A stretch of 64,000 bases of DNA from Prorocentrum cordatum. Its lineage: Eukaryota; Sar; Dinophyceae; Prorocentrales; Prorocentraceae. The position numbers and the translations under genes were made by a program. The notes beneath the pieces are model-generated. The model made no database searches. It had not been told where the DNA came from and worked only from the letters and a program-made list of their open reading frames with translations. Below, piece by piece: positions 19,646-61,550 of this stretch (its first letter is position 1; each line of letters starts with the position of its first letter). The stretch covers positions 1,155,893 to 1,219,892 of the forward strand of contig CAUYUJ010006335.1 in the NCBI GenBank assembly GCA_963575745.1. The letters are read 5' to 3'.

Positions 19646-19647
19646 CC

Positions 19648-21040: not shown

Positions 21041-21087
21041 GCTCGGCCGCAGTTGCCGCAGTCACAGCCGCGGCGGGCGGCCGCGTG

Positions 21088-21107
21088 CGAGCCAAGAAAT
21101 GGCTATG
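21088..21107 (-). promoter_or_regulatory. putative relict spliced leader
   Basis: The minus strand reads CATAGCCATTTCTTGGCTCG, one base different from the site at 18661 and close to the dinoflagellate leader. It lies 47 bases upstream of the ATG at 21040, a normal place for the leader-derived 5' end of a reinserted mRNA. Confidence 0.5.
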
Positions 21108-21149
21108 ACAACGCGTGCGATTAATGCTATGTGCAATGCGCGCGCAATG

Positions 21150-21500: not shown

Positions 21501-21725
21501 GCGTGTTCGACAACGCATGCACGCTGCGCCGTTGCAGCGCCCGCGCGCGAATTATCGCCGATCAGGCTCAGCCCAGCATGCCCAGCTGCTGGACGAAGGC
21601 GAACAGCTGGCCCGCCACAGTTGCCACCAAGAGGATGGACTTGCTGCGAGCCGCAGGGTCGGAGGACCCCAAGATGCGACAGAGCATCAACATCATCGCG
21701 CCCGCACCGATCAGTAGCGCGCGAA

Positions 21726-24785: not shown

Positions 24786-24867
24786 GCGCTGGCATGGAGT
24801 GCCGCGCGCGGGCGCGGCGCGCGAAGGGGCGCGGCGGACGCGTCACCGCGCGCGCGCAGAGGTAAAA

Positions 24868-25215
24868 ACAAAGCGATGGGGATCGCTCGGCGGAGGTGAA
24901 GCTATGGCAATCGCTTGGGAAGGCGGGGGGCGACGGGGGTCGCGGAGGCGCAGCGATGGCGATCGCTCGGGAGGGGGAGGAGGAGGACGAGCAAGCTGCT
25001 TTGACTGTTTTAACGCCGTTTTTGGCGCCAACTGCTGCAACAGTTTTAACGTCGTTTTGGGCGGACGGGGGACAGTGGGAAGTGGAGGAGGAGAGCGATA
25101 GCGATCGCTGGGAGGGGATAGTAGGAAGTGGAGGAGGAGAGCGATAGCGATCGCTGGGAGGACGAGGAGGATAGCGATAGCAATAGCAATCGCTGGTCGC
25201 CGCGCGCTGCTCCAG
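24868..25215. repeat. hairpins in the opposite orientation (AGCGATGGCGATCGCT)
   Basis: Copies at 24871 (loop GGGG), 24953 (GGCG), 25092 and 25141 (AGCG), plus partial ones at 24902 and 25166. The asymmetric loop now reads as the reverse complement of the copies left of 24.1 kb, matching the change of coding strand. Bases 25070-25110 and 25125-25160 are a direct repeat (GTGGAGGAGGAGAGCGATAG). Confidence 0.8.
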
Positions 25216-45256: not shown

Positions 45257-45261
45257 CATTT
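45257..45261. repeat. target-site duplication, left (CATTT)
   Basis: CATTT precedes the left LTR and follows the right LTR (61551-61555). The empty site in copy 1 has a single CATTT (GGGGGC-CATTT-TGGATCC). Confidence 0.95.
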
Positions 45262-45546
45262 ACTTTAAACGGAGAAGGTTAAAGGCGAGGTATAAATCGA
45301 GCATGTACCGCTGCCGTGCCTGGCTCAAGCCGGGCCCGGCCAAATATATGACTGTGCCTCACCGAGGCGCACGACTGGTATCTGAGATCGGAAAATACCT
45401 TTTCCATTGAAGATGCCTCTTCTATCCTTTACTCCAGATCCCATGCTTCGTCTCGCTCTCTTGCTCATGCGATATGAGCCAAAGCCTGGGATATGGCAAC
45501 GCTTGAAGCGTAACACATACCTAAGCTTACCAGCATGTTTTCGACT
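45262..45546 (+). repeat. left LTR (285 bp)
   Basis: Begins ACTTTAAACGGAGAAGG and ends CATGTTTTCGACT; boundaries are set by comparison with the right LTR and the target duplication. It does not begin TG or end CA. It holds a TATAAAT word at 45291 and the ORF1 start codon at 45413. Confidence 0.95.
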
Positions 45547-48500
45547 TGGTAGCGGAGCTGGCTACACTCTCGTGTGGCTGGCTCTCGCTCTGATTCCTGT
45601 AATCCACGGCACAACTTGGTGGACTACTACTACGGTGGAATACCATGTTGCGCCGGCTCTGCGAGGAGCGGAGCCAGTCCGCGATCGAGCTAGCGGGGCA
45701 ACCCGCGAACTCGAGACGCTCTCTCCTACTTCACTGCGCTACTTCACTCTCGACTTCCACCAGCTGCCAATCGGCAACTCGATCGAGAACGTGGTCACCC
45801 TGCGGGGCTACCCGCAGCGGGGCCACCTGCATCCCGTGCCAGTCAGGCGCCTCACGGCTACTACGCCAGAGCCTGACAAACCACAGCCTAAACCAATCAC
45901 CGAAGCCGAAATGCACATGCACTGGATTAAGATAACTATCTTCGGCATTCTGTGGGTAATAATGGGATGTGCTGTGGGATACATGCGGCAGGGGATGGAC
46001 GACACGCGTACTACTGGCCCTTCATGGGACCCTGCCGGTACTACGCCTTTTCGCGAATACGTTCGCGAAGTACATGCATGGATAAACGTAACGAGCGGCA
46101 ATATGACGCCACCACAACAAGCTGCAGCACTACAACGAGGCCTTCAAGGTCTTGCTCGTCGTATCGCCATGCAGGTCCCCTCCCAGATCATCAACTATGG
46201 TGTAACTGTCAATGGACAGCCAACGGATGCAGTCACATATATACTGTACCTACTGAGCACCAAATTTGAAAATCTGGAAGATGAGCGCCAGCTCAACTCT
46301 GGCACTGCCCTTATCGACTTTCGCGTCGAAAGGGGCGAGCGAATCGACTCAGTGTTAGCTCGATTCGAGATGGCCCGTGACGAGGCTAACTCTGTTGGCT
46401 TTGTCATCCCCAACTTTCAGATCCTAACGCTGATTCTTTTCAGAGCGTTAGGCGTTGGCGCGTCACGAGCCCAACACCTGCTGGAGCCTTTTAATCATCA
46501 GATGCCCAGAACACAAGCAGACTATGACAGGCTGCTGACCAGGATGAGGAACTACGGACATGTTGCCGAGCGCTCTCCTGGCAACATTGCGGGTATCTTC
46601 ACAGGGCACCACTCACATGCAGGTGTCTACGCCACGACTGCGGGGTCACCCGCTGGTCCTGGCGAGCCAAGTCCCTGGGCTGACCCAGCCGATATGCCCA
46701 ACGAGGCCACTGCCTTCTTAGGGCAGACCGGCCAGGCATCGGCAGAGGCAGCTGAGGCGAACGCCTGGTCGAACTACTCGCCAGGCGCCGCCTACACTGC
46801 AAGCCCGCCCTCGGGCACAACCCTCTGGGGCCAAGCGGAGTCATCCGCTCAAGGGTCTCAGCCACCCTCACCGTTTGAATCTGGCACTGACACAGACACC
46901 TCATCTGACGATGAGCACAATGGCATAGTCTCTGCTGGTAATGACTATCCAGCGGATGACACTCACCTTTCTGAACAACAAAGAGCGGAAGCCGCTTTTA
47001 TGGCTTATCGCAAATCAAAACGCCGTTGGAGGCGCTTTATGAAGAAACCAGTCAGAAAAGTGAGACGTGCAGTACGCCGACATTTCAAACGATATGGAAA
47101 GGGTCGTGGCAAAGGGGGTCGCAGACGCCGTATGCATGGTAGGGGTATTACTGCTTTCCTCACGTCCTTAACTGATATAGTCTTTGAAGAAGTTCTTATC
47201 GGAGGCAAAGGTCGGGGTCACAGGCGGACCTCCGGTAAGGGAAAAGGGCGGAGGGGCAACCCTAGGGACGCTTCTGGCAATACTATGAAGTGTCATACAT
47301 GCGGCAGCACAGAGCACTTGCGCGATCAATGCCCGAAAGGGAAAGGAAAGGGATCCGTACATTTGGCTCAAAATTCTTTTATGGATGACATAGACTACAT
47401 TGACTACGAGTTTTACGTCAATCCAGAAGCGGCTCCCGCCGCGGGCTCCTCCACGTACTACGTGATGGCCCGCTACGCTGAAGTGACCGTAGCCCTGGAA
47501 GACTACGCAGTGACCCTCTTCGACGAGTTCCACGGCTGGGACGAAGTCGACGAGGTCGCGTTCAATGCTTGGTTCGGTCTTCCAGCGGGGCCACCCGCCG
47601 ACGACGAGATCTCCGAAGCTGAGACCGTCCCGGCGACCGAGGAAGAGCTCACCGCCGCGCTGGCACCGCAGGTGATTGGCATGCCGTTGCTGCCAGATCT
47701 TCCGCGAGCTGGCTCGGAAGCGGGAGACGCTGATGACGAAATGCGGGGCCATCCCGCGTATTCTGACTCCGAAGAGGCCGAAGAGGACTATAAGGACATG
47801 CTCCAAGAGCAGGTCGCAGAAGCAATCCGGCTCCTGAGTGCGCCAGCACATCAGCAGATAACCATGAACGACCTGCTGTCGCGCCCAGGGGCCGCACGGC
47901 TGCGTCCATACCTGGATTCGGACATGTCGGCACCTCAGATGCTGACAGCACTCCAGGCTCTAGCGGGGTCACCCGCCGAAGTGACGCCAGCCGCAGCAGC
48001 GGGGCCACCCGCTTGGTCTATGGATGCATTTATGCAGGGCTGCGACCAGATGGACCTCAACGACCTCACGATGGAGCAGCTAAACGACATCGGGTACTTC
48101 CGAAGCCCGTATCAGCACGTATTCATGGTCCAGGACAGCTCAGAGGACTCGGAGGACATGCGCTATGCCAAGAGGGACAGACGACCATCGCCTCCCCGAG
48201 ACTCAGAGCATGACGATCAAAGGCCCATGGAACGTGGTAGTGCGTCAGCGGGGCCAGCCCGCAGGAGGAGCCGTTCAGCTCCCCGACGCCCTACACATGA
48301 TGCATCGGGCTACCCGTGCAGTACGGGGCACTCCGTTGGTGCATCCGCTCAGTACGTGCCGGAGTGGTACATCAATTGGTACCCCGGCTACTCGATGGAC
48401 GTGATCCGCCACTGGTATTCTAAGGAATACTGCACCAAAAGGGACGAAACTGGCATGATAATACGTACCAAGGGTGGCAAGACCAAAACGCCAGAGGCTT

Positions 48501-49873
48501 GGGACAAAAGGGCTAAGAAACAGGAGATCATCAACGATCGCAAGACATACAGAAAACAAGTATGTCAGTGCGAGCCCTTCAAAGGTCACATGCGCAGTTG
48601 TCCAATGGACCGCCCCTCCAGGAGTCCTCATCACGGTGAGACCCCGTGGAATTGGTCTCATGGAGATGACGCTGGCAACGTCCATGATCCTAACAAGGAG
48701 GTCCCTGGAGGAGGAAAGCGCATCACAGAAGCCGATCGCGTCCCTATGACCGAAGAGGTTGCCAACACTGTCAGGGAAAATTGGGTACAGCTTCCCAATG
48801 ACCATCGCCTCAAGGAATGGAACCGCCGATTCCATAAAGAGGCGGGGTCACCCGCAGGATCCAGCAAAGAAGCGGGGTCACCCGCAGACGCGGCGCCAGC
48901 CGCTGGGTCCGCGGACGAAGATTGGATAGCTGTTGCATCTGCTGCCGGGTCCGCCGCCGGCACTGACCACACCGAACTGAATGAAGAATGGGCGGCGGAA
49001 GACGGCTCAGAGAATCCATTCCCTGATGGATGCGCCTGCTGGTACTACAGCTCCTCGGCGCAGAAGTGGTTTTGCACGAGGGTAATTCACCGCCACGAAA
49101 ATGGCAAGTACAAGCTGGCCATAAAAGGTACTGCCGACATCGACCAGATGAGGCAGATCATCCATGATCATGGCCAGCCAGAAGGCCCTCCTAAAGACCC
49201 TCCTGGTCCACAACCAGGCAAGGGCAGCAGACCACCTCCAAGACCTGAAGCCGACTCCTCGTCTTCACCGACTCCTGCGAAGAGGCACCCGTCCAAGAGC
49301 CCCGAAGGCACACAGGGGCGGGCGAAGGCCAGAGGGATCGCCAAGACGGACGACCCTGAGCTGGGAGATCCTCCCGGTCTGTCCGTGACGGAGAGGAGGA
49401 AGGCTTTTGCTGGACCATCGACCCCGATGCCACCGGCGACCCAAGGCGATGTCAAGGACGAAGTTCGCGACAAGCCTAAGGCAGCTTTCCGAGGTGACTG
49501 GACTCCAACTCTGCATCAGCCGCGCCTTGCACCACGACCAGGTTCGGCACGAATGAAAGCACAGCCGAAGCCCGAAGCTGGGATGAGGTCGGTGCGGGCA
49601 GAAGCAGCCGCCAAGGCTAAGGAGGACAAGGGCTCTGCGGGGCCACCCGCTAAAGCGGCGCCAGCTGCGGCAGCGGGGACACCCGCAGAAGGCACTCTCT
49701 CAAGAGAAGAACGCTTCAAAGTCCTCAAAGAATTTGGCGACCGACAGAAACTAGCCGATGATGCAGTGGCTGACCAAGGTCACCCGCACCCTGGCGCGGA
49801 GTCATCCGCTGGAGCTGCCTCGTCAGCCGCAGGCTCTGCGGGCCACCCGTTAAAGCGCCGCCAGCTGCATTAG
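45413..49873 (+). CDS. gag: Copia ORF1: Gag-like protein with zinc knuckle and hydrophobic N-terminus (1486 aa)
   Basis: The first ATG is 45413, inside the left LTR, so about 45 residues are LTR-encoded. Hydrophobic segments at ~50-66 (YTLVWLALALIPVIHG) and ~170-190 (WIKITIFGILWVIMGCAVGY) look like membrane helices, unusual for Gag. A Copia Gag domain spans ~205-400 (FREYVREVHAWINV, ALIDFRVERGERIDSVLARF, RTQADYDRLLTRMRNYGH). A basic stretch (KRRWRRFMKKPVRKVRRAVR) precedes a CCHC knuckle C627-x2-C630-x4-H635-x4-C640. The C-terminal half is acidic or Pro-rich linker with unknown folded patches (YVPEWYINWYPGYSMDVIRH, CACWYYSSSAQKWFCTRVIH). AGPPA/AGSPA peptides are encoded by the DNA hairpin family. 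It ends at TAG 49871-49873; ORF2 starts 29 bases on in another frame. Confidence 0.85.
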   Translation: MPLLSFTPDPMLRLALLLMRYEPKPGIWQRLKRNTYLSLPACFRLGSGAGYTLVWLALALIPVIHGTTWWTTTTVEYHVAPALRGAEPVRDRASGATRELETLSPTSLRYFTLDFHQLPIGNSIENVVTLRGYPQRGHLHPVPVRRLTATTPEPDKPQPKPITEAEMHMHWIKITIFGILWVIMGCAVGYMRQGMDDTRTTGPSWDPAGTTPFREYVREVHAWINVTSGNMTPPQQAAALQRGLQGLARRIAMQVPSQIINYGVTVNGQPTDAVTYILYLLSTKFENLEDERQLNSGTALIDFRVERGERIDSVLARFEMARDEANSVGFVIPNFQILTLILFRALGVGASRAQHLLEPFNHQMPRTQADYDRLLTRMRNYGHVAERSPGNIAGIFTGHHSHAGVYATTAGSPAGPGEPSPWADPADMPNEATAFLGQTGQASAEAAEANAWSNYSPGAAYTASPPSGTTLWGQAESSAQGSQPPSPFESGTDTDTSSDDEHNGIVSAGNDYPADDTHLSEQQRAEAAFMAYRKSKRRWRRFMKKPVRKVRRAVRRHFKRYGKGRGKGGRRRRMHGRGITAFLTSLTDIVFEEVLIGGKGRGHRRTSGKGKGRRGNPRDASGNTMKCHTCGSTEHLRDQCPKGKGKGSVHLAQNSFMDDIDYIDYEFYVNPEAAPAAGSSTYYVMARYAEVTVALEDYAVTLFDEFHGWDEVDEVAFNAWFGLPAGPPADDEISEAETVPATEEELTAALAPQVIGMPLLPDLPRAGSEAGDADDEMRGHPAYSDSEEAEEDYKDMLQEQVAEAIRLLSAPAHQQITMNDLLSRPGAARLRPYLDSDMSAPQMLTALQALAGSPAEVTPAAAAGPPAWSMDAFMQGCDQMDLNDLTMEQLNDIGYFRSPYQHVFMVQDSSEDSEDMRYAKRDRRPSPPRDSEHDDQRPMERGSASAGPARRRSRSAPRRPTHDASGYPCSTGHSVGASAQYVPEWYINWYPGYSMDVIRHWYSKEYCTKRDETGMIIRTKGGKTKTPEAWDKRAKKQEIINDRKTYRKQVCQCEPFKGHMRSCPMDRPSRSPHHGETPWNWSHGDDAGNVHDPNKEVPGGGKRITEADRVPMTEEVANTVRENWVQLPNDHRLKEWNRRFHKEAGSPAGSSKEAGSPADAAPAAGSADEDWIAVASAAGSAAGTDHTELNEEWAAEDGSENPFPDGCACWYYSSSAQKWFCTRVIHRHENGKYKLAIKGTADIDQMRQIIHDHGQPEGPPKDPPGPQPGKGSRPPPRPEADSSSSPTPAKRHPSKSPEGTQGRAKARGIAKTDDPELGDPPGLSVTERRKAFAGPSTPMPPATQGDVKDEVRDKPKAAFRGDWTPTLHQPRLAPRPGSARMKAQPKPEAGMRSVRAEAAAKAKEDKGSAGPPAKAAPAAAAGTPAEGTLSREERFKVLKEFGDRQKLADDAVADQGHPHPGAESSAGAASSAAGSAGHPLKRRQLH
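45547..45561 (+). other. primer-binding site (initiator-Met tRNA type)
   Basis: TGGTAGCGGAGCTGG starts directly after the LTR. TGGTA plus AGCGGAGC is the complement expected of a tRNA ending ..GCTCCGCTACCA; initiator Met tRNAs of several eukaryotes end in GCTACCA, and many Copia elements use this primer. Confidence 0.7.
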
Positions 49874-49902
49874 CGGGGCCACCCGCGCGCTGGCAGCCAG
49901 TA

Positions 49903-52900
49903 ATGTCTGTTCTTAGGAACATCCCTCTGGGAGCCATGGAATATTGGCAAGGCATTGAAGGCAAAGGCCCGAAGCGCACCATAAACCCACGAGTCACTCG
50001 AGACGATACAGACCGATACGAGGTCATTAATTGCCCTGATCGTCGTAACTTCGAGTGCCGCAACGACTGGGAACGTGAACAACAAGCCGTGGGAAATATG
50101 TTGCGAGACAGGCCGCCATTGCGCGTCGCGCAGCATAAGGCAGAGCTCATGAAGGTCATGGAGAGGTTCGGCATGGATCCGACTCTGCCGCGCGATGGGC
50201 AAATGACCAAGGTGTCAATATGGTTCTCTACAGCCCTACGCCATAGTCCGTATTGGAAGGACGGATTCAGCCGACACTTCGAAAAGATTAGCACTTTCGA
50301 TCCATACGATGGCTGGGTTGTTGTTGACGATTTGCTGACAAACTGGACTGAAAATGATCAGTGGAAAGGCTATCGTGAAATGCACGAGGTGCTGATCAAG
50401 GGCAGGCCCCACACGTCATACGTGTATTGGGTGCTGCTAAACTGCTGTGAGATGATTGACCATCACGGCATGCAGAAGGGCAGGCTCCAGATGAAGTGCG
50501 TTGATGACAGCATGCTGCTGCCTCCCAGGTTTCGACCAACGGCACGCAGGCCACAGTACTTCATCAGAGCCACGAACGGCCACAGCAGCCCAGGCATCCA
50601 CTGTCCCGAGTCGCTTTATAAGCCGATCACAACATGGATGAAAGAACCAGACGACCCAGTATATTTCATCCACGGGACACAGTGGGAGTATGTCAAGGAC
50701 ATCCTTGCTAATGGCCTTTCATGCCTCGCACAGGACAACCCTAAAAGGAAGGGGGGGCGCCAATTTGTACACGGCTGCCCCTACCTCCCGGGCGACCCGA
50801 GGATTCAATCGGGCATCCGTCCTGACTCGGAGGTGCTCATATTCTGCAGCATCAACAAGATGCTGTCCAGTGGCTTTTCCCTATGGAGGTCAGCAAATGA
50901 CATCGTCATGACACGGGGCCACGACGGCCGTATACCGCCCGATCATATCCTCCAGATTGTGAGCATTGCGAAATATCGGGTCGGTGAAGCCTGGAGCAAT
51001 CCGCTGGCTTATGACAAGTCGCGGAGGCGGGGCCAACCCGCGGACAGGATTCGCACCGATGACTACCTGCCACTTAAATTATGTGACAGAACTCTGGGTG
51101 TAATGGGAGATCACGCCATGTACCTAAAGGGCTGGTCTAAGACGGACGGTCGCCCATTCAACTTGATCATGACCGAGCAAGATGTTGCTCCACGACCGTA
51201 CGACACACAGACGGTCCTCATGATAAATGCCCAGGAAGACGAGGTCATGCCTGAAGCGGGGCCACCCGCAGGTGCGGGGACACCCGCGGTAGACACCTCG
51301 GACGGTTCATGGCAACAAGTGGTCACACCAGTAGCAACGGTAGCATCTCCTTGGAGGCCGGATCAGCAGGCATGGGTCCAGGCCCTCAACAGCTACTTGA
51401 CACCAGCCGACGTTTCTGGACTGACCGATCAGCTATATCGTGCTGACCCGTGGGCAGTGCATACAGGTATCCAAGACGCACAGCAGAGGAACCTGCGCAC
51501 TCCTGCGGGGCCACCAGGCGTCCTAGGACCACAGCCACAACGCCCTCCGCAGCAGGCTGGAGGTGCGAGGTTTGTCCCTATGGGCGGCTCAGATGGTGGC
51601 TCGCCGTTTCGGACTCCGCCGTCTGAAACGAGCGAGAACAGCTTGTGGCAAAGACTCCAGGCGATTCGCGGGAATCCGGCACTCGCAGCAGCACTCCAAG
51701 CAACCACTCCCTTTGGCACTCCGAGGGGTAGCGAAGGAGGAGTGGCTGCGGGGTCACCCGCCGAGCGAACGCCTGCGGAGCCACCCGCACATGCGGGGCC
51801 ACCCGCTGACGGACAGCAAGGTTCAGACTACGAACGTCGGGCAGCCAACTTAAGAGCACAGGCTACTTTTCTGCAGCAACAAGCGGATAGAGTGCCCAGC
51901 CTGTTGCGGAACCGCAACATAGATGTTACGAATCATGGCGACTTTCGGCCTCTCTGGAGCTGGACTTCTGAAGATGCTCCAAATGCTGATCCCACGAATC
52001 CATATCGACAGGTGTTTATTCCAGGAATAGCATCACACCCAATATATGGATGGGACAATCATGGACCAGCAGAGGCACAGGCCATGGACGCGCCGATGTA
52101 CCCGGAGTACTACGCGCAGATGAATAACACTCCTATGATTGCGGGGCCACCTGCGAACGAATACACTCGGAATCTAGCCAATGAGATGTTTCGTTTGCAG
52201 TTTACACGAGCGGTCGATGCGCAGTCTATGCCGCACTACGCCTACATGCCCACGCCGACGGACCCCGAGACCGTAGTTCAGCCAGCTGGTCTCGCGGTGC
52301 CAGCCGCTATAGGCAGCATGCCAGACTACATCCGCGACGTGCACAACACGCAGCAAGCGATACTGGCATCTAGGCAGCAGGCTCGGGACAACACCAGGCT
52401 GCGCCAACAACGCGCGATCCAGAGAAGGATTGAGCGTGAGACCCAAGCGGGGACACCCGCAGACGCGGGGCCACCCGCTGAACGGCCAGATAGACGGCCG
52501 CCACCGACGCCATATCGGGAGGGCGAAACCACTTTCGAGCGCCAAGCTCGGACTCGCCCAGACGTGCCTGCTCCAGTCATTTCAGACTACAACTTCACAC
52601 AGTGCCCAATCTGTATGGACAACTACGAGATGGGCACTACAGTGTGGAGACTGGCGTGTGGGCACTTCTTTCACGATATATGCTGGGATCGTGTTGCACA
52701 GCAGCACGTCCGCAATCAGCGGCCAGGTGCGCCGAATGAGGCCCCCTGCGCTGTATGTCGTGGGCCGGGCATAGTTATAGCACACTTCCCGTATGCTGGA
52801 CAGCGCGACGCTGAATCAGAACAAGCGCGCCAGCAGGAAAGGTACGTGGCAGATGCCCGGGAAATGCGTCGGCTACGTGAAGCAGTGGAGGCACTGGAGG

Positions 52901-54564
52901 CTCGAGCCGCACAATCGGCGGAGCCATCCGCACGTGCCCCAGCTGCACAGGCATACCCCTGGCCAGCGCCAGAGCAAGGCATTCAGATGCCCATCCTGCC
53001 TACGCTTCGAGCGCAGGAGCCCCCAGCTGCGGGGCCACCCGCTGAAGCGGCTCCCGCCGCCCAAGCGGGGCCACCCGCAAATGGACCTCCAAATCCAGGC
53101 TTCCTGAGGGCAATGGAGGCCAACATCAGGCGGAGTGGCAGGAGCGGAGGCGGGACTCGAAGGCCAACTGGATCAACCAGGACCTCGCGAGTGGCAAGCC
53201 CGGTCAGCGCCAGGAGCCGTGCAAGCGCTGAGAGCGCAGAGGCAGCCCAGTTCCATACCACATTCATGATCGATACAGAGGGGCTGACCTACGCACGTGA
53301 CGACACGGACACGCTGCCACCAGGAGGTGAATGGATGTCCACGCTATCTGCGAATTATTGGGTCCTTGAGCAGGAACCAATTACCGTGGAGGAGCGCCGC
53401 CAGTATGAGCAGATGTGGTGCACCGAGCTAACCATGAGTCAATGGGTGCTTGAACAGCGCCTGTTGAAAGGTACACTCGGTTCGCAGATCACGTACCACA
53501 CCAATGACCATGGGACAATGGCTCTGGCAGCGCGAAATGGGACATTCTTTCCTGACGAAGACGGTATGCCCTGCATCTCGTTCATGCTAGACATTGGGTC
53601 CAATGTGAACATCATTGGATCCAATACGGCGCGAACCTTCCAGGAGATTATGGCCAGGTACAATCGCCGACCTGCCATATGCGCCCTGAGTAAGACCCTC
53701 TACATCAATGGTGTTGGTGAGGGCGCTGCGATATGTCGGAAGATGGGCAACTTCAAGATCGGGGTACAATATGCCAATGAGGCAAGCCCCCGTATTGAGG
53801 AGTATGCCTCCAACATCGCAGAAGGCTCGGGTGCCAATCTCCCAGCCATCTGGGGCCTAGGAGCCATGGAAGCACGTGATACGATCATCGTGCTGAAGCC
53901 AGGCTACCAGAAGGTTATCTTCCCCAGCGGTGACTACACCCTGAAGCTGGGAAGAGGCGCCAAGGTCCTGAAGGCGAAGAAAACACCCTCGGGACATCTC
54001 GCGATTCCCTGCGGTTTGTATGACGGGGCTAAAAGCCAGACGGTCACGAACACATTCACAATCCGCAGCAGTCGAGATGGCTATACCGAGACGGAGAACG
54101 AAGAGGACCCCGTCAGTGCGGGGCCACCCGCCGAAGCAACAGCGGGGCCACCCGCGACGGGACAGTCCATGACCGTCACGACCGATACGTACATTGTCGA
54201 GCCGTACATCGACAAGCAGCTCCTGGAAGACACGACCCGTTTGATCGTGGACAGGACGCTGAACAGCTGGTGGGAGGGCCAACAGTGTCCCGAAGGGACC
54301 TGGCCACATATGAAGGATGCTCTGAAGTCTAAGATATTCTGGGCAGTCCAGGAGGCGGTGAATAAATGGACACCTGAGGACCAAGCGGGGCCACCCGCGT
54401 CACCGCCACCACCACCAAGCTACACGGGCGGAGGTTCGTCGGACTCTGCGGGGCCAACCCGCGTGGAGATCGTGAGCGTAGCCGCACCAGCGACTCCTGC
54501 GGAGCCATCCGCTAACAGCATGCCTCCGAGTCAGACGGCAACGTGGTCACACGACCGCCGCTGA
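49903..54564 (+). CDS. Copia ORF2: KptA/Tpt1-like domain, RING-H2 finger and retropepsin (1553 aa)
   Basis: ATG 49903. Residues ~100-360 match the RNA 2'-phosphotransferase family: WFSTALRHSP with Arg113-His114, DPYDGWVVVDDLL, PQYFIRATNGHSSPG (~218-232), YFIHGTQWEYVKDILANGLS (HGT 257-259), SGIRPDSEVLIFCSINK, and LWRSANDIVMTRGHDGRIPP with Arg329. Tpt1/KptA uses NAD+ to remove a 2'-phosphate from spliced RNA. A long Ala/Pro linker follows. Residues 901-952 form a RING-H2 finger (C901-C904-C919-H921-H924-C927-C949-C952), typical of E3 ubiquitin ligases. A retropepsin follows at ~1225-1400: FMLDIGSNVNIIG (Asp1230, with Ile where Ser/Thr is usual) and LPAIWGLGAMEARDTIIVL. The frame ends at TGA 54562-54564 and stays open after it. 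Clear order; enzymatic activity unproven. Confidence 0.85.
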   Translation: MSVLRNIPLGAMEYWQGIEGKGPKRTINPRVTRDDTDRYEVINCPDRRNFECRNDWEREQQAVGNMLRDRPPLRVAQHKAELMKVMERFGMDPTLPRDGQMTKVSIWFSTALRHSPYWKDGFSRHFEKISTFDPYDGWVVVDDLLTNWTENDQWKGYREMHEVLIKGRPHTSYVYWVLLNCCEMIDHHGMQKGRLQMKCVDDSMLLPPRFRPTARRPQYFIRATNGHSSPGIHCPESLYKPITTWMKEPDDPVYFIHGTQWEYVKDILANGLSCLAQDNPKRKGGRQFVHGCPYLPGDPRIQSGIRPDSEVLIFCSINKMLSSGFSLWRSANDIVMTRGHDGRIPPDHILQIVSIAKYRVGEAWSNPLAYDKSRRRGQPADRIRTDDYLPLKLCDRTLGVMGDHAMYLKGWSKTDGRPFNLIMTEQDVAPRPYDTQTVLMINAQEDEVMPEAGPPAGAGTPAVDTSDGSWQQVVTPVATVASPWRPDQQAWVQALNSYLTPADVSGLTDQLYRADPWAVHTGIQDAQQRNLRTPAGPPGVLGPQPQRPPQQAGGARFVPMGGSDGGSPFRTPPSETSENSLWQRLQAIRGNPALAAALQATTPFGTPRGSEGGVAAGSPAERTPAEPPAHAGPPADGQQGSDYERRAANLRAQATFLQQQADRVPSLLRNRNIDVTNHGDFRPLWSWTSEDAPNADPTNPYRQVFIPGIASHPIYGWDNHGPAEAQAMDAPMYPEYYAQMNNTPMIAGPPANEYTRNLANEMFRLQFTRAVDAQSMPHYAYMPTPTDPETVVQPAGLAVPAAIGSMPDYIRDVHNTQQAILASRQQARDNTRLRQQRAIQRRIERETQAGTPADAGPPAERPDRRPPPTPYREGETTFERQARTRPDVPAPVISDYNFTQCPICMDNYEMGTTVWRLACGHFFHDICWDRVAQQHVRNQRPGAPNEAPCAVCRGPGIVIAHFPYAGQRDAESEQARQQERYVADAREMRRLREAVEALEARAAQSAEPSARAPAAQAYPWPAPEQGIQMPILPTLRAQEPPAAGPPAEAAPAAQAGPPANGPPNPGFLRAMEANIRRSGRSGGGTRRPTGSTRTSRVASPVSARSRASAESAEAAQFHTTFMIDTEGLTYARDDTDTLPPGGEWMSTLSANYWVLEQEPITVEERRQYEQMWCTELTMSQWVLEQRLLKGTLGSQITYHTNDHGTMALAARNGTFFPDEDGMPCISFMLDIGSNVNIIGSNTARTFQEIMARYNRRPAICALSKTLYINGVGEGAAICRKMGNFKIGVQYANEASPRIEEYASNIAEGSGANLPAIWGLGAMEARDTIIVLKPGYQKVIFPSGDYTLKLGRGAKVLKAKKTPSGHLAIPCGLYDGAKSQTVTNTFTIRSSRDGYTETENEEDPVSAGPPAEATAGPPATGQSMTVTTDTYIVEPYIDKQLLEDTTRLIVDRTLNSWWEGQQCPEGTWPHMKDALKSKIFWAVQEAVNKWTPEDQAGPPASPPPPPSYTGGGSSDSAGPTRVEIVSVAAPATPAEPSANSMPPSQTATWSHDRR

Positions 54565-55646
54565 CGGGGGCAGGCGGGCGCGCCGGCGGCGCTCGCTTGC
54601 GAAGAGAAGCCGAATACCGGCCTCCTCGCTACATACGTTGGCCGCGCTGAGGCCCGAGAGGAAAAATATCATTCAAAATGTCTTGTCATCGAGGATATTC
54701 GCACAGCTTGCGCTGAACTCCGAACCCGTGGCTATATATGTGATCGGATTACCCATAATGAGGTAATGACTTCAACTGGAACACAGTATTTGGGAAATTT
54801 GTTGGCAGGAGACTACAATATGTTGTGGGTGGCCACACCCTCTGATTGGTACGTTCGTACTCCAGGAAAGAGGGCGGGACCACACTATCAACGTATACAA
54901 AATCTCCTGATCAAAGCGCGTGCTCTGAGAATGCAGATTGTTATCCTGGGGCCACCCGGGTATTTCTGGAAACAGGGTCCGATCAAAGATGTTATCGAAG
55001 ATTTGAAGCTAAGCATTATACGAATGAGACTCTGTCATTTCGGTATCAAGTTTGACCGCTCCAGTAAATATCCCAGTGGTTCTTATATACAAGTTGCTAC
55101 ATCTTGTCCTCATATACCGATAAACTTATGGAATGTACTTGTGGCTCACACAAAGAGCATGATTTGGATTGGTATGGCCAAGATCAGCAACGTGCCGAGT
55201 TTCGGCATAAAACTTTGGCTATCATTATTGCACGCTTCCTTGATCAACTCAATAAAGCCAACATGATCAGGAATGAGCGGAGTGCGGTACACCTCAGTGT
55301 GTGTACTCGCGTTGACAAAAAGATAAGACACTACGTCCAATGTCCACAAAAGGGCCCTCAATGGGACCATGTTGTTCGTAGAGTCACGACCGACCTGGAC
55401 ACGAATAAGATCGTTCAAGATATCAAAATCCAGGATCAGCCGACTGGGTACAATTATGTAGCTCCATTACCTGATGGGGTTACAAACATCAGTACTCGGT
55501 TATACTGGGAGCCTCCGGCTCCAGTTCTTCACGGCGACGGTGAGTCGCGAAGGCCACGCCCAAAGCGTGTGACGATCGTCGATGACGATCGGTCTCCTCC
55601 CCCTTCGATTGAGCGCTGCCAAACGCGACCCACCAACTTTTCCTGA
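54562..55646 (+). CDS. Copia linker coding region after an in-frame TGA, with frame changes
   Basis: After TGA (54562-54564, followed by CGG) the ORF2 frame stays open for 233 codons to 55266, encoding LLAGDYNMLWVATPSDWY, MQIVILGPPGYFWKQ and CHFGIKFDRSSKYPSGSYIQ, a segment that precedes the methyltransferase-like domain in dinoflagellate Copia proteins as I know them. Near 55115 the sense moves to another frame (DKLMECTCGSHKEHDLDWYG, then LAIIIARFLDQLNKANMI) that runs to 55646; near the CCCCC at 55602 it returns to the original frame, the pol frame. ORF2, this part and pol therefore share one frame overall. Options: UGA readthrough plus frameshifting, compensating indels, or sequence errors. 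Confidence 0.65.
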
Positions 55647-58600
55647 AATTCCGCCATTTCCTGACTTAACAGCGGATTCCTCCGCAGCGGATCTCTCCGC
55701 GGAAACTGCGTTGCCCACTGATGCCAGGATAAAACAGAAAGAAAAGCAGAAAGCTGACAAAGAGGCTGGCATCAAACCGAAGAAAATCCCGAAGAAAGTG
55801 GAAGACGGTAACGACGACTGTGGAGAGGACCTCAAAGGGCTTGACTGCTCCACATATTTCAACGACGTTCCTCTTGACGACTCGGACTCGGACAGCGAAT
55901 CAGAGGACATCTTCATGATGCTACCGGCGGGGCAACCCGCTGACTCACATGCTGATGTCTTCTCGATGGTCCAGTCATTATGCTACGGCAGAAACAATCA
56001 AGTGGACATGCTTGAATTATGTGGGGGCAAGGGTGGTATATCCATATTAGCCTTCAAGAGGGGACTCTCGTCAGGCGGGAACCTTGACAAGATATCTATG
56101 GTTGACCTTGGGAACTCGGAAGTACAAAGAGCAGTCCTCCACTACCTCAAGACTTGCTTTGTTAAGATCACGATTCTGCAGCCAAGCTGCAGAACTACTG
56201 GACTTCCTTCCTATTTCAATGCACAGGTCAATCATGATACGTTGCTTAAACACCACAAAGAGGACCTGCCTCATATCACGTTCTGTGGAACAGTCGCTCT
56301 ATTACAAGACGACCTAAGACGGTTCTTTCTCAGGGAACAACCAATGGGCACGTGGGTGGATGAGATCCAGACATGGAAGGAACTGGCACAACGCAAGGTC
56401 ACTTGCCAAACGATTATTGATCAGTGCACGACTGGTCTCAAAGATTCATTTGGACAATACATCCGCAAGCCAACACAGATGATGGCAAACAAAGAAGAGT
56501 TGTTGGCACCTTTCAGAGGCAAGCGTTGTCCAGGTAATCATGTGCACGCCAATGCTTGCAACAAAGAACTAGCAAGGGCGGCACAGTATACCTACAGAAT
56601 GCAGTCACTGATCGTTGATGCGGTGCAAATCGCCAAAGATCTGTTTGCTTACGGTCGCGATCCATTCGCGAATCGCGAACGCAGCTATGCGTTCGTAACA
56701 AACAGTGCTGGCTACGACTTGGACGACCCAACAATCCGGAGACACCCAAACGGAGAAATCTGGCGACCACCACCTGGCGGTCTTGGGTGCCATGGCTGTG
56801 TGGACAACAACTACAAGCAATCACCAAAGCACAGCAGGGATCCGAAGATGTGTCGGTGGTATGATGTTGAACCATACTACTGGGACTGTCCAAGCTGTAA
56901 GAAGGAATATCAGAAGAGTAATCCTCACCACACCAAGATATCTGGCCAATGCAGATTCGCCGAAAAATGGAAGCTGCCAGATAACTTTGGTCAGCCGCGC
57001 CCGGCGGGGCAAGCCGCTCCTGCGGCGCCAGCCGCGGAAGCGGCTCCAGCCGCAGAAGCGGCGCCAGCCGCAAAAGCGGCGCCGGCCGCGAGAGCGCGCA
57101 TACGCGCGCCTAGGCCGCCACGGCCTGGCGAGGGCGATCCAACCGCAGGCGCCAGCAGCCATGACATCACCAGAGCCGAAGGGGCTAATGGTGGCAACAC
57201 TGGCGCTGGCAGCTCTGACGATCACCGTAGACTGCCACAAGTTGCAGCAAGGCGCGGACGCATGGAGGGAGGAGATCCTCCACCACCGCCGCAGCCTCAA
57301 GCAGAGCCGAGGCCAAGGCCAAGGCTCCCTGATTGGACTCGCTTCGACGTTCAGCTCAGCCTCCAAAACCTGCGCAGCTTTGACCCAGCTGTAGTGCAGC
57401 GAGAACTCCGCAAACTCCACTTGAGATGGTTTCATGCCAAGGAGCCAAAAATGCGGATGATTCTAACTAAGGTTGGTCTGGGTGAAACCCGTTTGAGTCT
57501 GATCAAAGGCATTTGCGACTCGTGTAGAGAATGTCGAGCCTGGGACAAACCAGGCAACACGGTGATGCCTTCTGTGTCACTGCCAGGACGTTTCAACGAG
57601 GAAGTCGAATGTGATCTTTTCTTTTACAAACAGGAACATATTGTTTTTCACATCATCGACCGTTGTATTCGCTGGGCAGCTGGCACAGAGATTCCTGATA
57701 AGACCATGCATACTGTTCTCGATGCCTATCACACAACTTGGATGCAACACGGCCCTGCTAAAATCTTATACTCCGATGGGGAAGGAGCACTGAATAACGA
57801 TACAGCAAAGGCCATCCTTAAGGCTAAGGGAACAGAGCTTCGTATCCGAGCGCGTGGCCAACACGCCACGACTATCGAAGCTAGGAACGGCATCCTGCGA
57901 CACCTCATACACGTGATGGGAGAAGAATTGAATAGATTAAATATTCCTCTGAATTTCACTCGTCTTTTACATGAAGCCTTGTTTGCCAGCAACGCATTTA
58001 CCTTCTACAATGAAGTGTCTCCGTACAATGCGCTGTATGGCAGACAACCAGCTATGCTTCCCGATTTCCCTGTCTTGGATCATGATCAGTCCGCTGAATC
58101 ATCAGATCACTCAAGGGAGGAAACAATCAGGAGGGTTAGTCTGGAGGCAATCACGCAGGCCACTGCGGTTGCCAAGACGAACAGGGCTCTCCGTACGAAG
58201 ACTACTGCTACGGGTGAATTTCACTACAAAGAGGGAGATCTCGTGGACTATCATCGCCCGACCACCACGAAAGACGACTGGGGTGGATGGAGTGGTCCAT
58301 ACCCGGTCATCCGCAACGAACCTGACCGAGGCCAGGTCATCGTGAAGGTCGGCAGTCGCGAGGTGCGAGTACAGTATCCTGACACACGACACACGCTGTA
58401 CATCGAAGCACTTATGGTCCGCGAGATAGGATCGGACAATACGGCCCTTCGGACAGTATTGGCCTTTATTGCCGGTCTGCCAGCGGGGAAACCCGCCATG
58501 ACTTTCGGATATCTACCAGCGAAACAGGGTCGGCTGCAGATGACTGCTGCGAGCCGACTTTCGCCTAAGGTGCACTTGGCTCTTCAGTACCTCATACGCA

Positions 58601-61161
58601 ACTACTTTCGTATTGAAAACGTTGTTGCTGTACGACTTGCCAAGAGCCTGACGAAGTTGCCTGCTGCACCCTATGCAGACAGCTGTACACTAGTGCACTA
58701 TGATAATGATGTGACCCCTGGTTTTCATTACTATGAAGCTGATGGCACTGCCTTGAACATCTACGACATCACAGGATCTACACACTCACGCATCATCCAG
58801 TGTCTTAAATCCAGGAAGCCGCCTGCTGGATTTGACCGAGACCTCACTAAGTTTGAGGAACTCGCTGATGGTCCACCACCAAGCGAGTCACCTCCAGCAG
58901 CTGCTCCTGAGCAGCCTCCTGCGGAGAACGATGGTCGGCTCCCGACCATCATAGAAGAAACAGAAGAAGATCTGGATGCCTTTGTCTTGAAGTCGTGGTA
59001 TGCTGAACTGATGGATGACAGAACACTCCTTGAAGCTGACACAGAAGAAGTCATGCATACAGTTCCCACATACATGACAGACACACAGTGTGTGTTAGTC
59101 TCTACGACCTGTGAAGATGTGCAAGGCCACTTGCCGGAGCGGGGTCACCCGCCAGGATACGACATGGACACTTCTTACTACGTTCCTTTATGCTCCACGG
59201 ATCCGGATAGCAAATATGATCTGGACTCCGATGAGCACGGGAAGTACATCGAGCTCTGCTTCACAGCAGACATGTCCAAAGTCGTCCTGTCCGAGCAGCA
59301 ACACCGATTGTTGGATGACAGCAGCGTCACAACTATGCGAGTATACGTCAGTGCTGCCTCCAAACGTGCCGCGGTCGTCAAGGAAGACGATCTACTCACG
59401 AAGGCCGACATTCAAGCGAATCCGGTCAAAGTTTCCAAAGCCCTTTACACAGAATTGAAGACTTGGCTTGACAATAAATGCTTTCAGATGACTGACTTGA
59501 GCAAAGCGTCTAACATCATGACTTCACGCTACGTATACACATGGAAGTTTGTCAAGAACGAAAAGGGCGAAATGGAAAGGACGATCAGGTTACGCTTGGT
59601 ACTCCGTGGCTTCATGGACCTTGAAGCCTTTGATGTCGAAACCTTCTCTGGCACGGCAAGGAGGTCAAGCCAGAGACTGCTCGCAAGTTCTGCTGCATGC
59701 AACAAAGCTTGGATCATCGCTTCCCTGGACATCAACATGGCTTTCTTGAAGGGACTGACCTATAGCGAGCTCGCCGCGGCAACGGGCGAGAAAGAGCGTG
59801 TGGTGTGCTTCACGCTACCTCCTGGGTCAGCAGCTGTCCTTCGCACACTGCCAGGCTTTGAGTCATATGACGAATCAAAGCATTGTCTTCGGTGTCTGAA
59901 GCCGGGGACGGGCACGAAGGATGCTCCCAGGGCATTCTCGTTGAAGCTCAGGTCCATCACTAGGAGCTTTGGGCTACAGCCTACTTCATACGACGAAGAG
60001 TTCGAGATGAGCCCAAACCTCTTGACAGCCAAGCACGTTGATGACATCAATATGACTGGGAAGGAAGAGGCTATTGACAAGTATGTCAAGTGTGTTGAAG
60101 ATACGTTTGGGAAGTGCAAACTGAACAAGCACACATACACAAACTGTGCCGTTCGGTACAACAAGACCGATGATGGGAGCGTCACTCTCGATCAGGACGA
60201 ATACATCAAACAGCTTCGTCCTATCACACATCCAGAACTCACAGGAGCTGATCCTGAGAGCAAAGCGACAAAGACGATTTCTGATATGTTCGTCAGTCTT
60301 CGTGGCGCTCTAGCCTATGCGTTGATCACGCAGGTATGGCTGATGGTCTATGTTGTCTCACTACAACGTATCCAGGAACCGACAAACATCCAGGTACGAC
60401 GACTAAACGCGGTTACCAGGAAACTACAGGCAGGTCCGAAGAAGATCGTGTATCAAGCTATGACTCCAACAGGAGAAGTCGACCTGCATAGCGATTCTGG
60501 CTATCGTCGTCTCAACGGAGATGAAGACGACGAAGTCAAAGGCTATGGTATCCGCGGGGCTAACCTGCTGAGGCGTGGCCACACGCAAGCGGGGAAACCC
60601 GTCGTGCACCTGGTGGACGCATACTGCAAGTCTCATCGACTGCAGGTGCGTTCGAGCTACTCTGCGGAAACACTGGCAGCAGCCCACAACTTGGAAGACT
60701 GCTACCCGACCATTGTAACGCTCCACGAGCTACACTCGGGACCATTGACCCCCACACAGTTAAAGAACATATTGGAAATGGGTGGTCTATGTATCAAAGT
60801 CACTCTGACTATTGATGCCGAGTCTGTCTTCAAGTCTTTGTCTAGCAAAGATCTGAAGAAGCCCACAGAATGTACTCTGCTTGGGCACATTAGCTGGATC
60901 CGCCAGATGATGGAGCGCGGAATCGTTGAAAGCGTTCAATGGTGTGACACGCGGGATATGACTGCCGATGGTCATACCAAAGGTAGTATTGACCGCGCGT
61001 GGCTCCTACAAGTAATGGCCGGCCAGCAATCCTTCAAGCACGAGCTGAAGAAACATACACCGTATAGGGCGGGCAGGTCGTCTCAGGACGGCCCTGCCTC
61101 CCGAGCTAGCGGGGAAACCCGCGTGCAGGTGCGCTCTGGTAGCGAGGAAACTCGCCGGTAG
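55582..61161 (+). CDS. pol: Copia Pol: methyltransferase-like, integrase, reverse transcriptase, RNase H (1859 aa)
   Basis: The Met at 55582 is only the first in the frame; translation probably enters from upstream. Residues ~140-330: SAM-methyltransferase-like (MLELCGGKGG 143-152; QPSC with Cys203; CPGNHVHANAC). Integrase zinc finger ~611-650 (LHLRWFH.. CDSCREC), then catalytic Asp678, Asp732 (SDGEGA) and Glu766 (IEARNG). RT of the Copia type: SLDINMAFLKG with Asp1383 and KHVDDINM with Asp1487-Asp1488 (HVDD where YVDD is common). RNase H: Asp1638, Glu1696, Asp1745, Asp1796 (WCDTRDMTADGHTKG). All catalytic residues expected of INT, RT and RNase H are present, so the protein may be active. It ends TAG 61159-61161, one base before another hairpin. 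Confidence 0.9.
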   Translation: MTIGLLPLRLSAAKRDPPTFPEIPPFPDLTADSSAADLSAETALPTDARIKQKEKQKADKEAGIKPKKIPKKVEDGNDDCGEDLKGLDCSTYFNDVPLDDSDSDSESEDIFMMLPAGQPADSHADVFSMVQSLCYGRNNQVDMLELCGGKGGISILAFKRGLSSGGNLDKISMVDLGNSEVQRAVLHYLKTCFVKITILQPSCRTTGLPSYFNAQVNHDTLLKHHKEDLPHITFCGTVALLQDDLRRFFLREQPMGTWVDEIQTWKELAQRKVTCQTIIDQCTTGLKDSFGQYIRKPTQMMANKEELLAPFRGKRCPGNHVHANACNKELARAAQYTYRMQSLIVDAVQIAKDLFAYGRDPFANRERSYAFVTNSAGYDLDDPTIRRHPNGEIWRPPPGGLGCHGCVDNNYKQSPKHSRDPKMCRWYDVEPYYWDCPSCKKEYQKSNPHHTKISGQCRFAEKWKLPDNFGQPRPAGQAAPAAPAAEAAPAAEAAPAAKAAPAARARIRAPRPPRPGEGDPTAGASSHDITRAEGANGGNTGAGSSDDHRRLPQVAARRGRMEGGDPPPPPQPQAEPRPRPRLPDWTRFDVQLSLQNLRSFDPAVVQRELRKLHLRWFHAKEPKMRMILTKVGLGETRLSLIKGICDSCRECRAWDKPGNTVMPSVSLPGRFNEEVECDLFFYKQEHIVFHIIDRCIRWAAGTEIPDKTMHTVLDAYHTTWMQHGPAKILYSDGEGALNNDTAKAILKAKGTELRIRARGQHATTIEARNGILRHLIHVMGEELNRLNIPLNFTRLLHEALFASNAFTFYNEVSPYNALYGRQPAMLPDFPVLDHDQSAESSDHSREETIRRVSLEAITQATAVAKTNRALRTKTTATGEFHYKEGDLVDYHRPTTTKDDWGGWSGPYPVIRNEPDRGQVIVKVGSREVRVQYPDTRHTLYIEALMVREIGSDNTALRTVLAFIAGLPAGKPAMTFGYLPAKQGRLQMTAASRLSPKVHLALQYLIRNYFRIENVVAVRLAKSLTKLPAAPYADSCTLVHYDNDVTPGFHYYEADGTALNIYDITGSTHSRIIQCLKSRKPPAGFDRDLTKFEELADGPPPSESPPAAAPEQPPAENDGRLPTIIEETEEDLDAFVLKSWYAELMDDRTLLEADTEEVMHTVPTYMTDTQCVLVSTTCEDVQGHLPERGHPPGYDMDTSYYVPLCSTDPDSKYDLDSDEHGKYIELCFTADMSKVVLSEQQHRLLDDSSVTTMRVYVSAASKRAAVVKEDDLLTKADIQANPVKVSKALYTELKTWLDNKCFQMTDLSKASNIMTSRYVYTWKFVKNEKGEMERTIRLRLVLRGFMDLEAFDVETFSGTARRSSQRLLASSAACNKAWIIASLDINMAFLKGLTYSELAAATGEKERVVCFTLPPGSAAVLRTLPGFESYDESKHCLRCLKPGTGTKDAPRAFSLKLRSITRSFGLQPTSYDEEFEMSPNLLTAKHVDDINMTGKEEAIDKYVKCVEDTFGKCKLNKHTYTNCAVRYNKTDDGSVTLDQDEYIKQLRPITHPELTGADPESKATKTISDMFVSLRGALAYALITQVWLMVYVVSLQRIQEPTNIQVRRLNAVTRKLQAGPKKIVYQAMTPTGEVDLHSDSGYRRLNGDEDDEVKGYGIRGANLLRRGHTQAGKPVVHLVDAYCKSHRLQVRSSYSAETLAAAHNLEDCYPTIVTLHELHSGPLTPTQLKNILEMGGLCIKVTLTIDAESVFKSLSSKDLKKPTECTLLGHISWIRQMMERGIVESVQWCDTRDMTADGHTKGSIDRAWLLQVMAGQQSFKHELKKHTPYRAGRSSQDGPASRASGETRVQVRSGSEETRR

Positions 61162-61265
61162 CGAGGCTACTCGCGCGCCCTTGCCTTGTAGGCAGCCGCT
61201 GCTGCTTAGCACTGTTTTTCCGCGTAATGTAGAAGTGCGGTGCCTGCTCGTCTCCTCCCCCTCCG
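61162..61265 (+). other. 3' noncoding region; no purine tract before the right LTR
   Basis: The last hairpin (GCGAG-GCTA-CTCGC, 61161-61174) is followed by ~90 bases ending CTCGTCTCCTCCCCCTCCG just before the LTR. This tract is pyrimidine-rich on the coding strand, whereas a plus-strand primer (PPT) should be purine-rich. Confidence 0.6.
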
Positions 61266-61550
61266 ACTTTAAACGGAGAAGGTTAAAGGCGAGGTATAAA
61301 TCGAGCATGTACCGCTGCCGTGCCTGGCTCAAGCCGGGCCCGGCCAAATATATGACTGTGCCTCACCGAGGCGCACGACTGGTATCTGAGATCGGAAAAT
61401 ACCTTTTCCATTGAAGATGCCTCTTCTATCCTTTACTCCAGATCCCATGCTTCGTCTCGCTCTCTTGCTCATGCGATATGAGCCAAAGCCTGGGATATGG
61501 CAACGCTTGAAGCGTAACACATACCTAAGCTTACCAGCATGTTTTCGACT
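61266..61550 (+). repeat. right LTR (285 bp)
   Basis: Read base by base against the left LTR I find no difference over 285 positions. Followed by the CATTT duplication (61551-61555). Confidence 0.95.

Follow-up and report, generated by a model that had tools for sequence, protein, structure and literature searches.

About forty covarying GNNA hairpins along a Copia-type retrotransposon of Prorocentrum cordatum, candidate dispersed signals for Gag

The window analysed here, a stretch of 64,000 nucleotides (nt) of Prorocentrum cordatum DNA, contains a 16-kb Copia-type long terminal repeat (LTR) retrotransposon in which one small hairpin, typically a stem of five base pairs (bp) closed by a GNNA loop, recurs dozens of times. 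The question raised by this locus is why: the hairpin could follow from a peptide repeated in the proteins of the element, could be a piece of sequence that spreads by copying, or could be a structure kept by selection. A first-pass annotation had counted about 45 hairpins, and we found 51 GCG-start 5-bp hairpins with 4-5-nt loops in 45668-61174, including 30 exact GCGGG-(4-5 nt)-CCCGC units. The loops are mostly G..A as it stated: in 42 of the 51 the first loop base is G and the fourth is A; the other nine start at 46053, 47429, 53047, 55534, 55672, 55687, 57040, 57076 and 57094. The commonest loops, GCCA, GTCA and GACA, are GNNA but not GNRA. All four paired stem variants that had been listed, GCGGA/TCCGC, GCGGC/GCCGC, GCGTG/CACGC and GCGAG/CTCGC, are present. 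Judged from sequence comparison, the unit is very probably an RNA hairpin of the sense strand, constant in size and kept by selection, about 40 per element, and not a peptide repeat.

Excess, pairing and conservation of the hairpin

Shuffles of each open reading frame (ORF) of the element, 300 per ORF with the protein sequence and codons kept, gave an expectation of 0.10, 0.13 and 0.11 GCG-stem hairpins with a G..A loop (0.34 together), as against 16, 15 and 9 (40) in the three ORFs, and no single shuffle contained more than 2. Equal numbers in such shuffles had been named beforehand as grounds for giving up the idea of an enriched hairpin; the shuffles do not reproduce the unit. Frame independence held in part: frames 0, 1 and 2 contain 31, 3 and 6 of the 40 hairpins, which leaves nine off frame 0, but the majority are read as AGxPA in frame 0. 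The peptides SGATR, LRGYP and RGHPP are encoded as claimed by the hairpins at 45693-45706 (GCGGG-GCAA-CCCGC, frame 1), 45802-45815 (GCGGG-GCTA-CCCGC, frame 2) and 59139-59152 (GCGGG-GTCA-CCCGC, frame 2). Two hairpins had been assigned to noncoding positions, one overlapping the stop codon of ORF1 and one after that of pol; both, GCGGG-GCCA-CCCGC at 49873-49886 and GCGAG-GCTA-CTCGC at 61161-61174, begin on the last base of the stop codon, of ORF1 and of ORF3 (pol), respectively.

In a control region, positions 1-45000 of the window, 5-bp GNNA hairpins with any stem number 5 on the sense and 5 on the antisense strand, which is no excess, and GCNNGGNNACNNGC has 0 sense matches and 1 antisense match. 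Over the whole genome searched (4.13 Gb, 21,875 contigs), GCGGGGNNACCCGC occurs 30,980 times versus 3,390 for the pattern read backwards. The stretch L054, with no element by tblastn with the proteins of the window element, has 7 and 1 matches, of which 3 and 0 are paired, and L017, which contains many N, has 2 antisense GNNA hairpins. Paired GC-rich units thus occur elsewhere in small numbers; the element stands out by how many it has, by the variety of their stems and by their strand.

Four families from the one genome were compared: A (the window element and copies on C1 and C2), B (three copies, on C26, C15 and C2), C (one copy) and D (6.2 kb of one copy). The sister elements were reached through the first places of the genome pattern search, with L001-L008 and L024-L053 left out. 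The pol of family B is 61-66% identical to that of A in the best segments and 48-50% in the first, gag and ORF2 being more distant, and the pol of D is 62 and 66% identical to that of A in two main segments. Sense and antisense 5-bp GNNA hairpins number 43 and 10 in the window element, 41 and 0, 38 and 1, and 39 and 1 in the B copies, and 13 and 2 in C. The 38-41 hairpins per B copy compare with about 1 in shuffles; their stems are varied (GCTCG, GCGGG, GCGAG, GCAGG, GCTGG, GCCTG, GCACG, GCGTG and others) and their loops are mostly true GNRA (GAAA, GCAA, GAGA). Of the reverse loop type, T..C, the window element has 10 perfect 5-bp hairpins, four of which are two sites duplicated in both LTRs while another four have GCGGA or GCGGC stems.

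A non-circular test of pairing was made by choosing units by their outer and loop letters only (GCNNG-GNNA-CNNGC) and then scoring the two free inner pairs. Both inner pairs are Watson-Crick in 31 of 33 units in A, in 36 of 41, 33 of 39 and 35 of 39 in the B copies, and in 8 of 19 in C, where chance would give 1/16. Counting G.U pairs, the figures rise to 33/33, 39/41, 37/39, 37/39 and 16/19. Antisense matches number 1 in A, 0 in each B copy and 1 in C; family D has 11 sense matches, 10 of them paired counting G.U, and 0 antisense. Pooling A, one B copy, C and D gave 52 distinct units, in which 97.7% of cells were paired versus 79.9% after shuffling and the covariation score was 0.461 versus 0.097, with no slide of the partner approaching it; the units come from related elements, so the cells are not independent events.

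Pairing is also kept through different letters at orthologous sites. At residue 968 of ORF3, family A has GCGGG-GAAA-CCCGC (58483-58496), the three B copies have GCAGG-GAAA-CCTGC by codon alignment, and C and D have GCGGG-GCGA-CCTGC and GCGGG-GAGA-CCTGC, each with one G.U, so the site is paired in all four families by way of different pairs. At residue 1180 the stem is GCAAG/CTTGC in A (GCAAG-GCCA-CTTGC, frame 2, 59121-59134), GCTCG/CGAGC in one B copy and GCGGG/CCTGC in C. At residue 1664 it is GCGTG/CACGC in A (GCGTG-GCCA-CACGC, frame 2, 60573-60586) and GCGAG/CTCGC, around a GAAA loop, in the three B copies. The site table has 79 rows and leaves out hairpins in stretches that cannot be aligned (22 of 39, 18 of 38 and 18 of 38 in the B copies, 9 of 17 in C and 2 of 10 in D); 14 rows are paired in at least two families and the others in one family, which indicates that sites turn over. 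The covariation of stems that had been claimed for the window element is confirmed by the inner-pair test, the shuffled-unit score and the orthologous sites.

Divergence between copies was measured at every site where at least one copy has a perfect hairpin, the second copy being free to differ. The B copies on C26 and C2 show 17 differences in 400 stem positions and 296 in 1187 positions of the 15-nt flanks (Fisher p 1e-23), with 12 of 81 in the loop middles and 2718 of 14055 in the remainder; three stems have changed on both arms. Between those on C26 and C15 the differences are 10 of 410 in stems and 93 of 1213 in flanks, and among the A copies they are 3-5 of 485 and 48-87 of 1124. Loss of stem pairing in related copies, which would have spoken against the annotation, was not what we saw, since flanks diverge and stems stay. 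The shuffles, the retention of stems amid changed flanks and the covariation of stems together uphold its proposal of a selected hairpin in place of a peptide repeat.

The inner positions point to the sense RNA and not to the complementary strand, because G.U pairs outnumber A.C mismatches 26 to 5 over six element copies, three of them the related B copies. The size of the stem is fixed as well. When GNNA loops in the B copy on C26 were sorted by the exact length of the paired run around them, 816 places had 0 bp, 3 had 4 bp, 38 had 5 bp and 3 were longer. Among 112 units taken from A, one B copy, C and D, 11 extend to a sixth pair where 25.8 would be expected (p 0.0003); such a pair is therefore avoided. 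In family B, 33 of 36 hairpins are predicted to fold in their local context at a probability of at least 0.5, and their spacing is more even than random (coefficient of variation 0.69-0.71 versus 0.96). The base 3' of the hairpin in this family (L013-L015, L019-L021) was seen to be C in 34 of 39, 35 of 38 and 33 of 38 units, a preference not found in A, and the family B unit may be one of 15 nt.

Several results fit less well with this picture. In family A only 17 of 39 hairpins reach the same folding probability, and the spacing, unlike that in B, is not more even than random. The unrelated Copia element L016 of the same genome has 0 sense and 6 antisense units, and all six are paired. No DNA of relatives beyond this genome was found in viral_contigs or genome_contigs, and the covariation therefore rests on the four families of a single genome. 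In a test of coupling within X-G-[NDHY]-Y motifs on 63 pol relatives, the 22 near relatives showed 56 of 198 motifs coupled versus 50.4 permuted (P 0.15), and the 40 distant ones, intended as the control, showed 39 of 178 versus 27.5 (P 0.003). The single protein P0001 had 8 of 15 coupled versus 2.7 (P 0.0005), and five relatives of ORF1 and ORF2 had 4 of 29 versus 3.2. Since the distant control relatives stand out and the near ones do not, this protein-only test is unspecific and was given no weight.

Two side observations concern L016 and the pol relatives. In the region 3800-5500 of L016 an AGSPAP peptide is repeated, and its codons give GCGGG-TAGC-CCCGC on the sense strand; one unit there has both arms changed together (GCAGG/CCTGC in the antisense reading). 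The environmental pol protein P0016 repeats DPGNRI in 6 of its PGNR motifs, and P0012, another such protein, repeats HGNV and HGDV, three times each. Read back into codons, such repeats could correspond to a 7-bp GNAA hairpin and to GCACG-GNRA-CGTGC, and other lineages may have their own versions of the hairpin.

Candidate readers and competing explanations

The fixed stem length combined with a fixed loop type suggests a unit read by protein, and the RNA of the element probably carries a repeated label for some protein to recognise. The nearest candidate is Gag, the product of ORF1. The predicted model of one ORF1 segment matches retrotransposon and retroviral capsids by structure comparison with VIA-align. 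Upstream of the Gag zinc knuckle lies a Trp/Arg-rich motif, KRRWRRFxxKPVRKxRR (KRRWRRFMKKPVRKVRRAVRR, 47018-47080), which recurs in A, the three B copies and C and is a candidate reader of the hairpin. A similar motif is also present in P0070-P0073, and the motif is absent from L016, the unrelated Copia element that lacks sense matches. The unit consists of 5 bp with outer GC, closed by G-C beneath a G..A tetraloop, and from about 40 places in the 16-kb sense RNA it would offer Gag of the same element one recognition site many times over. By analogy with lambda N and boxB, the Trp/Arg-rich motif may hold the stem and stack against the loop; through many contacts of this kind the long RNA could be recognised as cargo and more readily brought together and compacted within the capsid. 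As a single mechanism, signals for packaging or assembly that are dispersed along the RNA and read by Gag are the best candidate, though one we put forward as slightly short of an even call, and among the roles proposed earlier for the hairpin, packaging through Gag rates highest. Somewhat more tentative is the fuller proposal that dinoflagellate LTR retrotransposons bear a genome-long, error-tolerant RNA label, a degenerate hairpin in some forty copies over all frames of the coding sequence, which is read by the element's own Gag and diverges together with it, so that each family would package its own RNA.

The same selected RNA hairpin could instead be read by a host RNA-binding protein, acting in export, localisation, stability or translation control, or by the KptA/RING protein of the element, and would then steer the fate of the mRNA and not the assembly of particles. 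The covariation evidence names no reader, and ORF2 carries both a KptA/Tpt1 domain and a RING finger. Among the stretches read, however, the unit is confined to elements of this clade, which weakly favours a reader encoded by the element. We consider a reader other than Gag unlikely but worth keeping in view.

A further explanation requires little or no function: copying during reverse transcription, through template switching, tandem duplication or correction of one arm by the other, may be the main way in which the hairpins spread and are kept perfect. Family A bears traces of this. Its copy on C2 gained hairpins in a 30-nt unit and in a 48-nt tandem insertion made of two 24-nt units, and its copy on C1 has a 45-nt hairpin block both at the usual place and, with two mismatches, 2.8 kb downstream, where the other two A copies have no hairpin. 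The 33 units of A are also rather uniform, with G-C at inner pair 4 in 28 and at inner pair 3 in 29. Similar flanks are shared by 6 of 741, 5 of 703 and 10 of 990 hairpin pairs among the A copies, in some cases only because the extended flank reaches the next hairpin; for two B copies the counts are 0 of 630 and 1 of 630. Hairpins have also been gained by substitution without insertion or deletion in conserved protein: GCGTG-GCCAA-CACGC (57852-57866, frame 2) arose in A with ARGQHA for the APGQHA of family B, and in the reverse transcriptase of B another came with GEETR in place of GEKER. The suggestion of a mobile micro-hairpin is supported only in part, by the tandem insertions and the ectopic block of A; in B there are almost no common flanks, and some sites became hairpins by substitution. 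Copying would leave unexplained the differently paired stems found at one site across families, the strand-specific loops, the preference for G.U over A.C, the exact 5-bp stem with its sixth pair avoided, and stems that diverge about six times less than flanks. As a full account it is improbable; self-spreading may in part supply new sites in A, and selection would maintain the pairing.

Compaction of the RNA by itself, with the tetraloops docking into receptors in the same molecule and so folding or dimerising the genome, appears still less probable. It would suit the GAAA, GCAA and GAGA loops that prevail in B. Of the two halves of the 11-nt receptor, TATGG was counted 20 times in both A and the B copy on C2, where shuffling of single bases gives 11.9 and 12.9. 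CCTAAG shows no excess (5 versus 4.3 in A and 1 versus 4.2 in the B copy), and the commonest loops of A are not GNRA. For docking to the 11-nt receptor, the docking of GNRA loops that had been raised earlier finds no clear support, only the TATGG half being in mild excess.

The earlier description had left the choice between an RNA and a DNA hairpin. The RNA part of it stands, on the G..A loops of the sense strand and the G.U count. A hairpin or site at the DNA level, be it a cruciform or a protein site in double-stranded DNA or complementary DNA, is very improbable: inverted repeats can extrude in DNA, but the loop orientation follows the sense strand and G.U, an RNA pair, is favoured over A.C by 26 to 5. 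The cruciform was set aside on these strand and G.U data.

Least credible of all is the AGxPA repeat kept for the protein with pairing as a by-product of codon choice, for which speak the 31 of 40 hairpins in frame 0, the retention of most AGxPA peptides in a relative 86% identical across half of ORF1, and the six paired antisense units from the AGSPAP repeat of L016, and which is ruled out as the main cause by the codon shuffles (0.34 versus 40), the nine hairpins outside frame 0 together with the many different peptides of family B, where frame 2 prevails, and the compensated synonymous change of GCG/CCC to GCA/CCT at residue 968. Ribosome bypass or splicing-out of the hairpins was rejected as well, as the frames run unbroken through them and the protein can be aligned on both sides.

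The element, its hairpins and its surroundings

The LTRs, ORFs, domains and hairpins of the element given here are on the forward strand. The element has two LTRs of 285 bp (45262-45546 and 61266-61550) that are 100% identical, and it is flanked by a five-base target-site duplication, CATTT, at 45257-45261 and 61551-61555; the identical LTRs together with the duplication point to a recent insertion. These features, a reverse transcriptase domain and a Gag with a capsid-like predicted fold agree with a Copia-type LTR retrotransposon. ORF1 (Gag, 45407-49873, 1488 amino acids) contains the segment with the predicted capsid-like fold (residues 151-438, 45857-46720) and a weak match to a CCHC zinc knuckle (47288-47338; PF00098, 17.7 bits, below the cut-off of 20.8). 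The protein P0069, filed under a Myxococcales metagenome-assembled genome, is 86% identical across about half of ORF1 and probably comes from a stray eukaryotic contig in that bacterial genome. ORF2 (49903-54564) was observed to combine, inside a retrotransposon, a KptA/Tpt1 RNA 2'-phosphotransferase domain (50308-50919) with a RING finger (52600-52761), both by Pfam; short stretches of it (8-13% of the query) match four Prorocentrum cordatum proteins at 96-98% identity. ORF3 (pol, 55582-61161) has its reverse transcriptase domain at 59473-60255 (PF07727, RVT_2, E 1.1e-10). As to an integrase upstream of the reverse transcriptase, Pfam gave no rve match in ORF3 of the window, and PF00665 is annotated for 9 of the 63 listed relatives. 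A genome search with the reverse transcriptase of the element yielded 10,829 candidates at first look, and 126 of them were scored.

The remaining hairpins of the window element are as follows. GCGGG-GCCA-CCCGC stands at 47585-47598, 47999-48012, 49637-49650, 51256-51269, 51793-51806, 52465-52478, 53029-53042, 53065-53078, 54118-54131, 54142-54155 and 54385-54398. The sites at 51793, 53029 and 54118 are common to C and those at 54142 and 54385 to D, and it is at 54118 that the copy on C2 has its two extra 24-nt units. GCGGG-GTCA-CCCGC is found at 46640-46653 (a site common to C), 47963-47976, 48842-48855 (with a further 30-nt unit in the copy on C2), 48872-48885 and 51748-51761 (the block that recurs 2.8 kb downstream in the copy on C1), and GCGGG-GACA-CCCGC at 49673-49686, 51274-51287 and 52447-52460. 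Other loops on the same stem are GCAA at 55927-55940 (common to D) and GAAA at 61109-61122 (frame 1), and five-base loops on it are GCCAT at 47743-47757 (frame 2), GCCAG at 48248-48262, and GCCAA at 51027-51041 (frame 2) and 54448-54462. Changed stems are represented by GCGGA-GCCAG-TCCGC (45668-45682), GCGGA-GTCA-TCCGC (46835-46848 and 49796-49809), GCGGA-GCCA-TCCGC (52918-52931 and 54499-54512), GCGGC-GCCA-GCCGC (48890-48903, 57022-57035 and 57058-57071), GCGAG-GAAA-CTCGC (61142-61155, frame 1) and GCAAG-GTCA-CTTGC (56393-56406, frame 1, not GCG-start, a site common to D). The LRGYP hairpin at 45802 is at a site common to B.

Rfam 15 gave 0 matches above the gathering score within 45200-61600, and no transfer RNA gene was found in the window by a scan with the bacterial code. 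Outside the element, a near-identical pair of ORFs (MAPISRVAAFLALVVTVNADFPCGDYDLS...) lies at 42341-43219 and 63012-63887, one on each side, which places the element within a duplicated host gene. A different hairpin, GCGAT-NNNN-ATCGC, is present in about 35 copies in the GC-rich host region at 10718-25578, with other loop types and with flanks that are often ca[ag]..ta; these hairpins are perhaps linked to introns or introners.

Relation to known systems and significance

Small hairpins spread through ORFs are known from the Rickettsia palindromic elements and the mitochondrial double-hairpin elements. Those are inserted units, whereas here many sites arose by substitution and covary, and copying is seen only in A. 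The lambda boxB hairpin, present in one or a few copies, has a 5-bp stem and a pentaloop and is bound by the N protein with stacking of a Trp in antitermination; Legault et al. 1998 is said to describe the recognition of its GNRA-like loop by an arginine-rich motif. The hairpin studied here is similar to boxB in its 5-bp stem, seen as the peak at exactly 5 bp, and its GNRA-like loop, which is GNRA in family B, but it has mostly tetraloops and about forty copies, and its arginine-rich partner is a candidate motif only.

Multiple dispersed packaging signals are described for known viruses (PMC6281560, PMC3593212). Satellite tobacco necrosis virus (STNV) is reported to have about 30 copies of AXXA stem-loops as such signals (PMC3593212), MS2 to have stem-loops with a common recognition motif (PMC6281560) and hepatitis B virus (HBV) to have RGAG loops (PMC7612645). 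The hairpins of the element are like these in being many small stem-loops with a common degenerate loop motif, spread over coding RNA and conserved as structure. They differ in belonging to a 16-kb LTR retrotransposon, in a stem fixed in length and partly in letters, and in pairing backed by covariation between families, the binding of a coat protein being conjectural here. In Ty1, the Gag of a Copia-group element is reported to select its own RNA, with a proposed psi at +230-580 (PMC8396678). A Gag that chooses its own RNA would be common to both, but Ty1 has one pseudoknotted region near the 5' end in place of some forty equal hairpins along the RNA. By analogy, the hairpins may work like the dispersed signals of STNV or MS2 and resemble boxB in build, and we claim membership in neither group. 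A limited literature search found no title naming dispersed hairpin signals in an LTR retrotransposon, which leaves their absence from the literature unproven.

Dispersed packaging signals are usually hard to establish, as their motifs are weak and degenerate. Here the evolutionary evidence is strong, with dozens of covarying hairpins of fixed length in one RNA and sister families as natural replicates, and the locus offers a case of RNA structure altering protein sequence within conserved polymerase and putative integrase domains. If Gag reads the hairpins, the choice of RNA by an LTR element and the evolution of dispersed signals would become directly testable with short synthetic RNAs. If this proposal is true, dispersed packaging signals would extend beyond RNA viruses and HBV, to an element that bends its own proteins to keep its label.

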